Assembly (NCBI GenBank): GCA_016932935.1
Contig: JAFGBX010000441.1
Coordinates: 1 to 32,296, forward strand
Direction: 5' to 3'
From: Promethearchaeota archaeon
Lineage (GTDB): Archaea > Asgardarchaeota > Lokiarchaeia > Sigyniarchaeales > Sigyniarchaeaceae
Length of the DNA: 32,296 bases
In this document: positions 25,606 to 32,296 of the stretch, piece by piece
Numbering within the stretch: position 1 is the first letter of the stretch
Layout of the letters: each line of letters opens with the position of its first letter
Translations under genes and position numbers: made by a program
The notes under the pieces: model-generated
The model's database searches: none
What the model saw: only the letters and a program-made list of their open reading frames with translations
What the model was told of the DNA's origin: nothing

Positions 25606-27189
25606 TCACGTGCCGTCGGCTTGGACCGGCGCCCCCTCCTTCTTCTTCGGGGGCGGTGGCGGCGGCAACTTCAAGAAGTAGGCGGGGTGGTAGCCCTTCT
25701 CCTCCACGCGTTTTGCTTCGGTTTTCTCGTAACTTCGTTTCTTGGCGAAGGAGAGTTTCTTCACGAGGGGGAGCCCTGGCTGGACCTCATCGATTGGTCT
25801 TTTCTCGATCAAGCCCGATTGCACCGCCGCGTCGAACAGCTCCTTCCCCGCACTTGTGCGAATGATGACCGTGTTCCAGCCGTCCGGGGATCCGATCGAA
25901 CCGACGGATACGTCTGCCAGCTCGGAGGTCAGGTCGTGGCAGCAATGGCAGCTGAGCCGGGCGAGTTTGGTCACGTCCTTCATGCTTGCCGACTTCGGCT
26001 CCCCGCTCGTGGGGTACGCGAAGAACTGCCCCTCCTTGATGTTCATCTTCCTCACCTGGTCGAGCGGGGTCTCGAACGTGCCCTCGCACAGCTGCTTGAT
26101 GCCGGCGTGGGTGAAGGACTCCATGCAGAAGATGCCGATGCGGTACTTGATGTTGCCGACGTCGACAGTCCCCGACGGATAGACCTCGGCCTTGCGGAGG
26201 GCTTGCATCATGCACGGGGTGCCGACGACGGCGATAGCCCTTTCCCGCTTCACGATCCTCAGCAGCCTCATGCTGGGCGTGTTCACGTACTTCGTCCCCG
26301 CGGCCCGAACGACGTCGGGAACGCCCTTCATGACGATGGCCTCGGGCTTCCACGGGACACCGCCCGCCCTCGCCGCGCCGATCGCGGCCTGGATCGCCTT
26401 CGACTCGAACGCGTGGATGAGCAAGGCCGATGACACCCCGCCGTCTTGCACGAGCGGCCGCAAGTCCTCCCGGGTGATCCTGGCACACCATGCCTCGGTG
26501 ATCACGCCCGTCTTGAGGTCTTCGGGGGTGGCCGGCTTGTCCATCATCGCCCACTCCATGGCCTTTCTCGGGAGCAGCGCCCGCGGGCACGCGGTGAGGC
26601 ACAGGCCGCAGCGGATGCACCTGTCCATGTCTATCGTGACCTTGCCGTCGTCCACCGAGATGCAATCGACGGGGCACACGGCCTGGCACGCGCCGCAACC
26701 GCTGCATGCCTTGCCTTCGTCGACCACCTTCACTGGCACGTAGACGGGCTGGATCTTGCTGGAATCTTCGGTGACAAAAGTGAACGAAACTGCATCCGGC
26801 CCGTCGAGATCGCACCGGACAAATCCCTCGAAGGCGAGTTGGAACGCGGCAGCGACGGCGGCCTTGCCAGGGATGCCGAGCGACTGCCCTTTCTGGGCCA
26901 AACCCTCGAGGTTCACGCCGCAGCCAGCGGCCTCTATCTCGCGCAATATCGCCGCTTTGCGCACTTCCTCGTCGAGCAAGGTTCCGAGCATGTCGTCGTA
27001 CTCGTTGCCATCGAGAGCGCCTGCTTTCTCTATGTCCGCCTTCGCGTCGACGAGGCAGCGGATTCGGAACGATCTCGCCGCGTGCAGCAACAACGGAAGC
27101 TGCCTCACGTGCTCGGGGTGCATCTCCTCCGCGACCATTTCGGTGGCCATCCACTTCATGGATCCGTTATCTGTCCTGGTTCTTATCAT
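25606..27189 (-). CDS. FrhB/FdhB-like flavoprotein with two [4Fe-4S] clusters
   Basis: 527 residues from the ATG at 27189; an in-frame ATG at 27159 is possible. An N-terminal region of about 150 residues is unassigned. A two-cluster ferredoxin follows, with Cys162, 165, 168, 172 and Cys191, 194, 197, 201. The FrhB-type domain from about 225 onward includes WCARITREDLRPLVQDGGVS, VVGTPCMMQALRKAE, the metal motif CHCCHDLTSELADVSVGSIG, and WNTVIIRT. FrhB-family proteins use FAD to pass electrons between iron-sulfur partners and F420 or other acceptors. The tail is six prolines and a charged end. It lies 85 bp after mvhD and is probably the electron-exchange partner of HdrA/MvhD. The acceptor is not determined. 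Confidence 0.88.
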   Translation of the reverse strand: MIRTRTDNGSMKWMATEMVAEEMHPEHVRQLPLLLHAARSFRIRCLVDAKADIEKAGALDGNEYDDMLGTLLDEEVRKAAILREIEAAGCGVNLEGLAQKGQSLGIPGKAAVAAAFQLAFEGFVRCDLDGPDAVSFTFVTEDSSKIQPVYVPVKVVDEGKACSGCGACQAVCPVDCISVDDGKVTIDMDRCIRCGLCLTACPRALLPRKAMEWAMMDKPATPEDLKTGVITEAWCARITREDLRPLVQDGGVSSALLIHAFESKAIQAAIGAARAGGVPWKPEAIVMKGVPDVVRAAGTKYVNTPSMRLLRIVKRERAIAVVGTPCMMQALRKAEVYPSGTVDVGNIKYRIGIFCMESFTHAGIKQLCEGTFETPLDQVRKMNIKEGQFFAYPTSGEPKSASMKDVTKLARLSCHCCHDLTSELADVSVGSIGSPDGWNTVIIRTSAGKELFDAAVQSGLIEKRPIDEVQPGLPLVKKLSFAKKRSYEKTEAKRVEEKGYHPAYFLKLPPPPPPKKKEGAPVQADGT

Positions 27190-27191
27190 CC

Positions 27192-27208
27192 CATCGCTCG
27201 CAGCGATG
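27192..27208 (-). repeat. Hairpin just before the frhB-like start
   Basis: CATCGC-TGCGA-GCGATG on the minus strand: a 6-bp stem with a 5-nt loop. It ends 3 bp before the ATG at 27189 and could affect translation initiation or form part of the SECIS region. Confidence 0.45.
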
Positions 27209-27210
27209 CG

Positions 27211-27252
27211 CCATCATTACCCCGTCGGCTTTGGTCAGGGTAAATCACGCGG
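27211..27252 (-). promoter_or_regulatory. Candidate SECIS element in the mvhD 3' untranslated region
   Basis: Downstream of the mvhD stop (27275-27277), on the minus strand, UGAU (27244-27247) and UGAU (27213-27216) flank a hairpin (27217-27243). The stem pairs UUACCC with GGGUAA, then U.G and G-C, an A.A mismatch and C-G. The apical loop of seven is CAAAGCC. The two UGAU segments face each other as U.U, G.A, A.G, U.U, the arrangement of the eukaryotic SECIS quartet. Below it a G.G mismatch and three G-C pairs continue. The location fits archaeal and eukaryotic SECIS elements, which sit in 3' UTRs. The fold was done by hand. Confidence 0.6.
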
Positions 27253-27274
27253 CTGGGGGATCGGGTGTGTCTCG

Positions 27275-27724
27275 TCATATCACGACATTCAAGCCCCGCG
27301 CCTTGTCCATTTTCAAGGGATTGGGGGGCAGGGCCTTTATCTTTGCCACGAACTCGTTGGTTGCCCGCATGAACCGGTCGATCTCCGCCGCCGACATGAA
27401 GAAGATGCCCACGCGATCGGGGTCGAAGCCAGACCGCTGGAGCATGAACTTCACCGCGTTGACGTGCCGCTCCGCGACGAGGTTTCCCGTCTCGAAGTCG
27501 CATTCCCCCTTGTGGCACGCGTAGATACCGACGCCATCGGCGCCGTCTCGCAATGCCTGGAGGATGTCCGAAACGTCAACGCGCCCCGTGCATTTCACCC
27601 TCACGAGGTATATCACGGGTTCGTACTGGTTCCTCGAAACGCCGACCAGATCCCCTGCGGAATAGCCTCACTTCTCGCAGCAGTATATAATTACTTTCCT
27701 GGGTTCTTGTTTGCTTCCTTCCAT
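27275..27724 (-). CDS. mvhD: Selenocysteine-containing MvhD/VhuD-type hydrogenase iron-sulfur subunit
   Basis: 149 residues from the ATG at 27724; ATGs at 27742 and 27745 are alternatives. Codon 19 (27668-27670) is an in-frame UGA. Reading through it gives YCCEKUGYSAGDLVGVSRNQ, which aligns with the MvhD motif F-C-C-x-W-C-S-Y-A-G-A-D-L-A-G, so the UGA stands for the second cysteine of a C-x-x-C pair. After it come the family features RVKCTGRVDVSDILQAL, ADGVGIYACHKGECDFETGN and GIFFMSAAEIDRF. MvhD links HdrA electronically to a hydrogenase or similar partner. Without read-through, only a 113-residue fragment missing its cluster-binding N-terminus would be called. The stop codon is itself UGA. 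Confidence 0.88.
27668..27670 (-). other. In-frame UGA read as selenocysteine in MvhD (codon 19)
   Basis: It replaces the conserved second Cys of C-x-x-C. Flanking coding sequence on both sides matches the family without any frameshift. Confidence 0.85.
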
Positions 27725-27803: not shown

Positions 27804-29870
27804 CTACGATTTGCAGCCGGGCTGCATCGGTGCGGGCGCGTCGGTGGATTCTGGTGTGTCTTTGGGAGTCCGTGCCATGCTTGCTTCCCCGCCCTGCTTG
27901 ATTATGGCGCAGACCTTGCCCGCGAGCTGGCCGTCGCGGTAGTACCGGAGCTCGATGGCCCTCGCGGGACAAGAGGATATGCAGATGCCGCAACCCTTGC
28001 AGTTGAGGTCGTTGACCTCCGCGACGTTGCTCTCGGGGTTCACCTGTATCGCGTTGTAGTTGCAAGACTTCTCGCAGCGGTGGCACGCGATGCATCGGCC
28101 TGGATCGACGATGGCAGTGACGAGCTCCTTGGCATAGATGCCGGCGGTGACGATGTTCGCAGCGGCCGCGGCAGCACCGAGCGCAGACGAGACCGAGTAA
28201 GGAACGTTCTTCGGCCCGGCGGCACAACCCGCGATGAAGATGCCTGGGTTCTTGGTCTCCTGCGGGCTCAAGCACTGGTGCGTCTCCTTGAGGAACCCTC
28301 CTGGGGACTTGTCCAGGCCTAGCACCGCTGCGATCTCGTTCGTACCAACGGACGGGATCATTCCGGCCGAGAGCACGAGCAAGTCTACCGAGACCTCTTG
28401 CACGGTGCCATCGAGCGTGTTCTCGAACGTCAACATGATGTTGCCGGTCGCGGGATCCTCCTTGATGTCGCCCGGGATGCCTCGCACGAACAAGACGCCC
28501 TTCTCGCGGATGCGACGGTAGTATTCCTCGTTGTGCTTGTCCCAGCACCGCATGTCCATGTAGAAGATCATGACCTCGACCCCGTCGATCTCCTGCTTGA
28601 GCAGCTGGGCGTTCTTCAAGGCGAGGTTGCAGCACACCGCCGAGCAGTACGCGTTGGCATTCTCGTGCATGCTGCGGGAGCCGACGCACTGGACCATGGC
28701 AACACGCCGCGGGATCTTCTTGTCCGATATGCGGAGCACGTGCCCGTGGGTGGCGCCGACGGGCGAGAGCATGCGTTCGAGTTCCATCTGGGTGATCACG
28801 TTCTGGAACCGGCCATAGCCGTAGGAACCGTGTTGCAGCACGGGATACTCGTCCCAGCCGGTTGCCACGATGATCGCCCCCGCGATGACGGTCTCGAGCG
28901 TCTCCTTGTCGTCGTAGTTGATCGCGCCCCGCTGGCATGTCTTCGCACATAGGCCGCAGCTCATGCACGCCTCCTTGTCGATCAAGGCGACCTTCGGAAC
29001 GGCCTGGGAGAACGGGATGTAGATCGCCTTCCGCATGCCGATACCCCGGTTGAACCCGTCGGGAACCTCGATGGGGCACTTGGCAATGCAAGCGCCGCAG
29101 CCCGTGCAGAGTTTCGGATCCACGTAGCGGGGTTTTTGCTTGATCGTGACCGCGTAGTTGCCCGTGATGCCTGAGACCGCCGAGACCTCGGCGTTCGTGA
29201 AGAGCTTGATGTTGGGGTGCTTCGCGGCCTTGACCATGATCGGCGCGACGACTCAGATGGCGCAGTCGTCCGTCGGGAAGACGCGGTCGAGCTGGGCCAT
29301 GCGGCCTCCGATGGTCGGCTCCTTCTCCACGAGGTAGACCATGATCCCCTGGTTCGCCAGGTTGATCGCCGCGTTCATCCCCGAGATGCCAGCCCCAACC
29401 ACGAGCACGGATTTGGTCACATCTACTTCCTTGCGTGGCACGTCCTCCAGGGACATCGCGCGGTAGACTCCACCCGCGACAAGCGCCTTTGCCTTTTCAG
29501 TCGCCCGTTCCTTGTCCTTGCTGTGGACGAACGAGCAGTGCTCTCGCAAGTTGACCATTTCGAAGTAGTACGGCGAGAGCCCGGCGTCCACGAGCAGCTC
29601 CCGGTAGGTGGGCTCGTGGATCTTTGGCGTGCAGGCGGCCACGACCACGCGGTTCACTCCGAGTTCCTGGATGTCCCGCTTGATGATCTGCTGGCCGGGG
29701 TCGGAGCAAAAGAAAGTGAAGGTGCGCGCGACGAGCACGTTCGGCAAGATCTCCGAAAAAGCCCTCACTCCCTCGGCATCGACGAACTGGCCTATGTTTA
29801 CTCCTCATTGGCACACGTATACGCCGATGTTCACAGACTCCCTTGGTTTAATGGGTGTTGTATCACTCAT
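27804..29870 (-). CDS. hdrA: Heterodisulfide reductase subunit A-like protein with two selenocysteines
   Basis: 688 residues from the ATG at 29870 to a UAG at 27804, if two UGA codons (22 and 206) are read as Sec. Without this the gene appears as two ORFs plus an orphan leader. The start region reads VYVCQUGVNIGQFVD, where family members have C-H-C-G-x-N-I. CSDPGQ, AACTPKIHEP and LREHCSFVH follow, all typical. The FAD motif GAGISG is at 159-164 with TIGGRMAQLDRVFP. DDCAIUVVAPIM replaces the family D-C-A-x-C-I-L. Four iron-sulfur motifs follow: Cys255/258/261/265, then CMSCGLCAKTC, CIACHRCEKSC and CKGCGICISSC. HdrA is the bifurcating flavoprotein core of Hdr complexes. HdrB and HdrC are not in the window. 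Confidence 0.9.
29253..29255 (-). other. In-frame UGA read as selenocysteine in HdrA (codon 206)
   Basis: It stands at the second Cys position of the family segment D-C-x-x-C. HdrA homology continues without a frameshift directly on both sides (FPTDDCAI before, VVAPIMVKAAKHPN after). Confidence 0.87.
29805..29807 (-). other. In-frame UGA read as selenocysteine in HdrA (codon 22)
   Basis: It stands at the second Cys of the N-terminal C-x-C-G-x-N-I motif: VYVCQ before, GVNIGQFVD after. HdrA-like coding resumes in the same frame. Confidence 0.82.
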
Positions 29871-31654: not shown

Positions 31655-32296
31655 ATGTCCCGTGAATTGAAGCTCTTCGTCGAGACGAAAGAGAACGTCG
31701 GCGACGACATCTACATTTCTAGTATTTCCGCAGAATCGCTTGGAGTGCGTGATGGAGACCTCGTCCAGGTGAGCATTCCAGAGGAGGGGTTCAACACGTC
31801 GCTCGTCGTGCACATCAACGAGAGCTTGTTCGACTTTGTCGTTCAGATCGACGAGAACCTGCCGGAGATACTGGGGTTCAAGTCTATGGAGCTAACGGTC
31901 ACGCCAGCCTCCCCCGGCACCCTCCCCGCTAGGCCTTCCAAGCCCGGTGCAGGGCCGGGCAGGCCTGTACCGCCGCCACGGGCTCCCGGAATGGCACCAC
32001 CCGTGCCGAGCCCGCCTGGCATGGTGGGGCCCCCACCAGGCCCTGGAGTGCCAGCCGTGCCGAGGATGCCGTCAATGCCTGGCGTGCCCGCCGTTCCCAG
32101 CGTGCCGGCCATGCCGGGGCTGCCGGCCATCCCGAAACCACCCTCTGTGCCCGGGGTGCCCGCCGTGCCGGCGGTTCCAAAACCACCGGCGATCCCGAGG
32201 CCCCCGTCCATGGCACCAGCGGCGCCGGCGATCCCGAGACCCCCGTCCATGGCACCAGCGGCGCCGGCGATCCCGAGGCCCCCGTCCATGGCACCA
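31655..32296 (+). CDS. Proline-rich repeat protein with N-terminal beta-barrel-like domain (3' end outside window)
   Basis: 214 residues are visible and the frame is open at the right edge. Residues 1-80 form a strand-rich unit (LKLFVETKENVGDDIYISSI, GVRDGDLVQVSIPE, FKSMELTVTP). The G-V-R-x-G-D-x-V pattern is common in double-psi or AbrB-like barrels. From about residue 85 the sequence is Pro/Ala/Gly/Val-rich with P-A-V-P, P-A-I-P and R-P-P-S-M-A-P units, low complexity and probably disordered. The last part is a 13-residue tandem repeat. Poly-proline segments of this kind can bind profilin, SH3-like or GYF domains; a profilin link is speculation. No membrane segment or signal peptide is seen. 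Confidence 0.7.
   Translation, partial: MSRELKLFVETKENVGDDIYISSISAESLGVRDGDLVQVSIPEEGFNTSLVVHINESLFDFVVQIDENLPEILGFKSMELTVTPASPGTLPARPSKPGAGPGRPVPPPRAPGMAPPVPSPPGMVGPPPGPGVPAVPRMPSMPGVPAVPSVPAMPGLPAIPKPPSVPGVPAVPAVPKPPAIPRPPSMAPAAPAIPRPPSMAPAAPAIPRPPSMAP
32186..32296 (+). repeat. 39-bp tandem repeat coding PAIPRPPSMAPAA
   Basis: Copies start at 32186, 32225 and 32264; the third is cut by the window edge. They differ by one synonymous base (AGG/AGA). Near identity implies recent expansion or gene conversion. Imprecise older units precede them. Confidence 0.85.

Follow-up and report, generated by a model that had tools for sequence, protein, structure and literature searches.

A probable selenocysteine codon at the cluster-binding site of an Asgard MvhD, with a three-way-junction SECIS element downstream

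The mvhD gene discussed here most probably encodes a selenoprotein of the MvhD/VhuD type, and we put this reading at roughly 0.92: within an Asgard operon of hdrA, mvhD and an frhB-like gene, an in-frame UGA would be decoded as selenocysteine (Sec) at a [2Fe-2S] cluster-binding position, directed by a shared junction-type SECIS element downstream of mvhD. Comparison with homologues supports Sec at the CxxU motif of this gene and an Asgard archaeon of the genus Sigynarchaeum as host. The window, i.e. the whole stretch of 32,296 nucleotides that was analysed, carries the following features, given in the direction of transcription:

27804-29870, minus strand: hdrA (688 aa), upstream of mvhD in the same operon, with two in-frame UGAs
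29805-29807, minus strand: in-frame UGA, Sec22 of HdrA (VCQU, CxC motif, N-terminal domain)
29253-29255, minus strand: in-frame UGA, Sec206 of HdrA (DCAIU, CxxU)
27275-27724, minus strand: mvhD/vhuD selenoprotein gene (FlpD family), 149 aa with Sec19
27668-27670, minus strand: in-frame UGA, Sec19 of MvhD (C16-x-x-U19), cluster-binding CxxC site
27275-27277, minus strand: terminal UGA of mvhD, read as a genuine stop (UAG in Ca. S. springense)
27188-27261, minus strand: SECIS element, a three-way junction between mvhD and the frhB-like gene, 13 nt after mvhD
27257-27261, minus strand: SECIS basal stem P1, 5' strand AUCCC
27214-27248, minus strand: SECIS hairpin P2, GUGA ... UUACCCUG-loop-CGGGGUAA ... 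UGA, with a kink-turn-type core
27193-27207, minus strand: second hairpin P3, AUCGC-UGCGA-GCGAU
27188-27192, minus strand: SECIS basal stem P1, 3' strand GGGAU
25606-27159, minus strand: FrhB/FdhB/FpoF-like F420-dependent subunit with a ferredoxin domain, downstream

An MvhD with a C-x-x-U motif hidden by an in-frame UGA had been proposed in an earlier note on this DNA, and the UGA is indeed found at the second CxxC cysteine of the family. A normal call starts after the UGA and loses the motif, as the note had also observed: the standard ORF covers 27275-27616 only (113 aa). When the UGA is read as Sec, the minus strand of 27275-27724 translates into MEGSKQEPRKVIIYCCEKUGYSAGDLVGVSRNQYEP...VVIU. 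This restores the predicted CCEKUGYSAGDLVG together with a full FlpD domain (Pfam PF02662), which is matched over residues 11-132 at 4.6e-39 (133.7 bits vs. a curated cut-off of 22.3; model positions 1-122 of 123). The best model for the protein is the VhuD family of NCBIfam (NF045873), yet its 138 bits lie below the curated cut-off of 215. The cluster-binding Cys set is present (C16-x-x-U19 and ACHKGEC), with U in place of one Cys. In the MvhD of 5odc, a solved Hdr-Mvh complex, the second Cys of FCCNWCTYGGAD (CCNWC) aligns with U19. In the MvhD of 9sfi, likewise a solved complex, an X is printed at the position matching U19, and another at the second MvhD site, which is Cys in the protein of the window.

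The same gene also ends in UGA, and the earlier note had seen a problem in the two UGAs that the ribosome must tell apart. Such an arrangement is common in the lineage: 17 of 43 Sec-encoding mvhD genes end in UGA, next to 16 in UAG and 10 in UAA. In several relatives the terminal mvhD UGA is the UGA of the SECIS core itself, and a terminal UGA within the SECIS core was reported earlier for Lokiarchaeia (PMC11227280). Among named relatives, Candidatus Sigynarchaeum springense stands closest (89% identical), and the assembly of the window is placed in its genus. Since the corresponding codon of Ca. S. springense is UAG, and relatives end in UGA, UAG or UAA, the terminal UGA acts as a stop. It lies 13 nt from the SECIS, whereas Sec19 is about 400 nt away and the two hdrA UGAs 2.0 and 2.6 kb. 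Its proximity to the basal stem is the likely cause of termination; a methanogen reporter study argues against strict distance limits (PMC9622424). Occasional decoding of the terminal UGA as Sec, giving a C-terminally extended MvhD, is improbable: the codon does stand in frame before the SECIS and a further in-frame UGA follows 10 codons on, but the added codons would reach into the SECIS stem and include no conserved Cys, and the UAG of Ca. S. springense and the varied stops of the relatives speak against it as well.

For the Sec19 site, 59 genomes (the window's own and relatives) were searched, and the fetched loci were translated with UGA kept visible. In the homologue alignment, which the earlier note had suggested, site 19 of the 47 distinct FlpD proteins of the lineage is occupied by U (43 proteins) or C (4), and by nothing else. 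The four proteins with C all belong to the window's own genome, as Cys paralogues. At the second MvhD site (Cys70 in the window), 36 of these 47 proteins have U and 11 have C. A second FlpD gene (locus L149, C107 of the own genome) carries an in-frame UGA at each of the sites 19 and 70.

The standard ORF call could also be taken at face value, with translation from the GTG at 27616, a short protein devoid of the CxxC as real product and the UGA as a regulatory stop. This is very improbable, however, as the upstream peptide RK(I/V)(I/V)IxxCEKUGYSAxDLxGxSR shows conservation, and its homologue in MvhD is the N-terminus that binds the cluster. The third-position bias also holds before the UGA: the differences from Ca. 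S. springense at the three codon positions are 2/2/8 before the UGA and 8/4/26 after it. Judging from this substitution pattern, the codons on both sides evolve as coding sequence, under purifying selection. It is hardly credible that the UGA arose through faulty sequencing or assembly, or through a mutation that disabled an ordinary Cys-containing mvhD. The window does come from a metagenome assembly and TGC-to-TGA is a single-base change, but the explanation is already refuted by the presence of the same in-frame UGA in other, independent genomes, whose identity is 89, 76, 70 and about 40-50%; the selection on the flanking codons, two further UGAs at conserved Cys sites in the adjoining hdrA and the SECIS downstream also stand against it. 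Just as hard to credit is a reading of the UGA as another amino acid (e.g. Trp) or a general read-through, which nothing specific favours, UGA serving as terminator here too: UGA alternates only with Cys (MvhD sites 19 and 70, HdrA site 22), UGA is otherwise an ordinary stop in the lineage (the 17 of 43 mvhD genes), and tRNA-Sec and Sec synthesis genes are present. We infer Sec at the CxxU motif because homology, the restriction of the site to U or C, the Sec pathway in the genome and genus and the downstream SECIS all point to it; the UGA at 27670-27668 would then be decoded as Sec at the position that binds the [2Fe-2S] cluster.

Decoding would follow the archaeal/eukaryotic pathway, with tRNA-Sec, PSTK, SepSecS, SelD and SelB. 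The earlier note had looked to this pathway, and most of it is present in the window's genome: tRNA-Sec (66 bits, above the curated cut-off), PSTK, SelD with its own in-frame UGA at GUSC, and a C-terminal fragment of SepSecS, which sits at one edge of the tRNA-Sec contig. The 82%-complete assembly of the window yielded no SelB, but three close relatives, two of them members of its genus, have it. Two matches were dropped as pathway evidence: the first, long SepSecS match (L012, C283 of the own genome) proved to be SepCysS, and C55, the top match for SelB, looks like EF-1 alpha. The presence of SepCysS implies tRNA-dependent Cys synthesis alongside the Sec pathway.

Sec decoding would be directed by one intergenic SECIS after mvhD. 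Its segment (27261-27188) reads AUCCC-CCAGCCGC-GUGA-U-UUACCCUG-ACCAAAGCCGA-CGGGGUAA-UGA-UGGCGC-AUCGC-UGCGA-GCGAU-GGGAU. The Asgard eSECIS-like model has a GA_[G/A]A core, an upper stem of 7-15 bp and an apical loop of 8-20 nt (PMC11227280). The inner hairpin fits this model, with a GUGA/UGA core, a UUACCCUG/CGGGGUAA stem containing one G-U pair and an 11-nt loop. By eye, no methanogen-type GAA_A bulge was seen in 27261-27188, and an Rfam scan of the window gave no matches. Sequence comparison and modelled folds support an eSECIS-like hairpin that is held within a three-way junction by the basal stem (P1) and the second hairpin (P3).

A SECIS model built from ten close sequences gave 82 matches in the fetched loci, the weakest two of which look like chance. 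In an alignment of about 80 sequences, whose pair counts lean towards the structure because the alignment was fitted to it, 19 of 19 pairs show changes on both sides and 94% of the cells pair; the observed values are reached in 0 of 500 shuffles, and slid partners drop to 38-56%. The structure-fitted alignment was used because MAFFT by itself brought the SECIS hairpin into register but left P1 and P3 unaligned, and it was backed by a separate test that is free of this bias, in which P1 and P3 were compared to dinucleotide shuffles of the same flanks. Over 69 non-redundant 3' regions of the order, the mean z was 2.2; 28 regions scored above all 60 shuffles, and in 51 at most three shuffles were as high. 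Unconstrained folding yields the junction in seven of seven representatives, including the window's. Within the window's own family P3 shows a compensatory change, from AUCGC/GCGAU to GUCGC/GCGAC, and similar junctions were seen by eye behind the mvhD genes of some genomes from other classes in the phylum. Model R1, which derives from AT-rich relatives, finds nothing in the GC-rich genome of the window, the window's own SECIS included; this element was placed from its structure and with the aid of three close relatives. Its fold energy is not exceptional (z -1.05, for a fragment that excludes part of P1); the case for it rests on covariation, not on fold energy.

The hdrA gene upstream is open only when both of its UGAs, which the earlier note had missed, are read, placing U22 in VYVCQUGVNIG and U206 in DDCAIUVVAP. 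Site 22 is U in 28 of 30 homologues, where it stands for a Cys of the N-terminal CxC motif, and site 206 is U in 30 of 30. Several Lokiarchaeal selenoproteins reportedly have more than one Sec (abstract of Mariotti et al. 2016), and U22 is therefore not claimed as new. U206 matches the CxxU Sec site known for HdrA (PMC13188914), a protein listed with one Sec in a table of PMC13188914, and the HdrA of 9sfi has an X at the corresponding site. Because a second convincing element is absent, the SECIS after mvhD probably serves the mvhD UGA and both hdrA UGAs. A conserved hairpin between hdrA and mvhD (27782-27766 in the window) has the stem GUUUGC/GCAAAC, with CUUUGC/GCAAAG and AUUUAC/GUAAAU in relatives; it was rejected as a second SECIS, since no conserved core is found on either side. 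Other HdrA copies carry three to five in-frame UGAs (L148, which is C307 of the own genome; L069, L070 and others). Sites 20, 22, 55 and 80 of HdrA resemble the invariant Cys quartet of the N-terminal domain, and Sec may thus putatively supply as many as three ligands to a single Fe-S cluster.

In the Elp-Hdr and Fdh-Hdr complexes, electrons reach the HdrA flavin from an FrhB/FdhB-like subunit by way of the N-terminal HdrA clusters and then the MvhD/ElpC [2Fe-2S] cluster (PMC12350162). By analogy, the FrhB-like subunit is the likely electron donor to MvhD-HdrA, and electrons would probably run from it to the N-terminal cluster of HdrA, the [2Fe-2S] cluster of MvhD and the HdrA flavin. U22 and U19 would lie on one electron path, the Sec residues thus being strung along a single wire.

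Asgard Sec-MvhD and Sec-HdrA have already been catalogued, which makes the mvhD of the window a known kind of gene. Huang et al. (2024) describe 1439 Asgard selenoproteins, with hdrA and frhD together and one common eSECIS-like structure; no SBP2 was found by them in Asgard archaea (PMC11227280). The window resembles the Sec-FrhD/MvhD/VhuD genes of that study in the Sec-HdrA that adjoins on the same strand, in the shared eSECIS-like element after the pair and in the archaeal/eukaryotic Sec pathway of its lineage. The published SECIS model, however, consists of one hairpin with an internal loop and a lower stem, whereas the lower stem in the window encloses a second conserved hairpin. The window's MvhD also carries a single Sec, its second site being Cys, whereas the majority of its relatives within the order carry two. 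The VhuD of Methanococcales likewise belongs to the FlpD family and has Sec at CxxU and a Sec-HdrA neighbour; the vhuD of M. maripaludis has two TGA codons (PMC9622424). The earlier note had compared the site to the VhuD-type Sec of methanogens, which holds for Sec at CxxU but not for the host, an Asgard archaeon, and the methanogen SECIS is of the GAA_A bulge type. MvhD/ElpC of the Mvh-Hdr, Fdh-Hdr and Elp-Hdr complexes (PMC12350162, PMC6019823) is of the same family and has an HdrA partner, a partnership that is read here from the gene neighbourhood alone; an FrhB/FdhB-like subunit adjoins as in the Elp/Fdh complexes. The MvhD of 5odc has Cys where the window has Sec, and the heterodisulfide role belongs to the known complexes. 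Eukaryotic SECIS elements share with that of the window the (A/G)UGA...GA core, the unpaired A in the loop and the location in the 3' untranslated region, and differ from it in that P3 and the closing P1 form a three-way junction in the window.

The mvhD gene is in itself ordinary, confirming and extending a known Asgard trait, while its SECIS is above the ordinary. The less expected results are the junction-type SECIS and the candidate new selenoproteins found with its model. No description of such a junction was found in the literature searched, which did not cover Mariotti et al. 2016, and an earlier description is possible. According to a review, the Lokiarchaeal SECIS has a single apical loop (PMC9499178), and no archaeal SECIS-binding factor is known (PMC9499178, PMC8211752). 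The conserved second hairpin, with its recurrent UGCRA-type loop and fixed junction, offers a concrete site to mutate, or a bait, for a SECIS-binding factor. The operon also amounts to a natural test, in which a ribosome would read three distant UGAs as Sec and stop 13 nt before the signal. A wider proposal is evenly poised: an undescribed three-way-junction SECIS may serve both this operon and much of the selenoproteome of the lineage, a single copy decoding three UGAs in two genes over up to 2.6 kb and sparing the UGA 13 nt upstream, and its model may find uncatalogued selenoprotein genes, one with two adjacent UGAs.

When eight relatives were searched with the SECIS model, 44 matches were obtained at E up to 0.1. 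Apart from those at hdrA-mvhD, several follow a short VhuU-like ORF (RCFDCULSCAAH; L200, L207, L208, L211, L212 and L219), and the frame of this ORF closes at, or close to, the UGA that belongs to its own junction-type SECIS. A protein of about 150 aa at L215, L216 and L223 has two adjacent in-frame UGAs (HADUUAD or GCUUEK) at about the same aligned place. Coding conservation is seen on both sides of these UGAs, and a SECIS-model match follows the ORF (weak for L223, E 0.019). The three proteins have no Pfam match above the cut-off, and L216 has no NCBIfam match. This UU protein is a candidate for a new selenoprotein family; like the other ORFs that precede matches of the model, it is a lead rather than a finding. 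Very short ORFs at L203, L204, L205, L213, L218 and L221 have one apparent membrane helix, a tail rich in glycine and a UGA in frame (GGPSULC, GGGUPC, GGCGUGG, DDCFUH), and each is followed by a SECIS-model match; as small membrane selenoproteins they are weak candidates. At the end of the window (31900-32296), a tandem repeat of GGTGCCATGGACGGGGG... units would code for a glycine/alanine-rich stretch.
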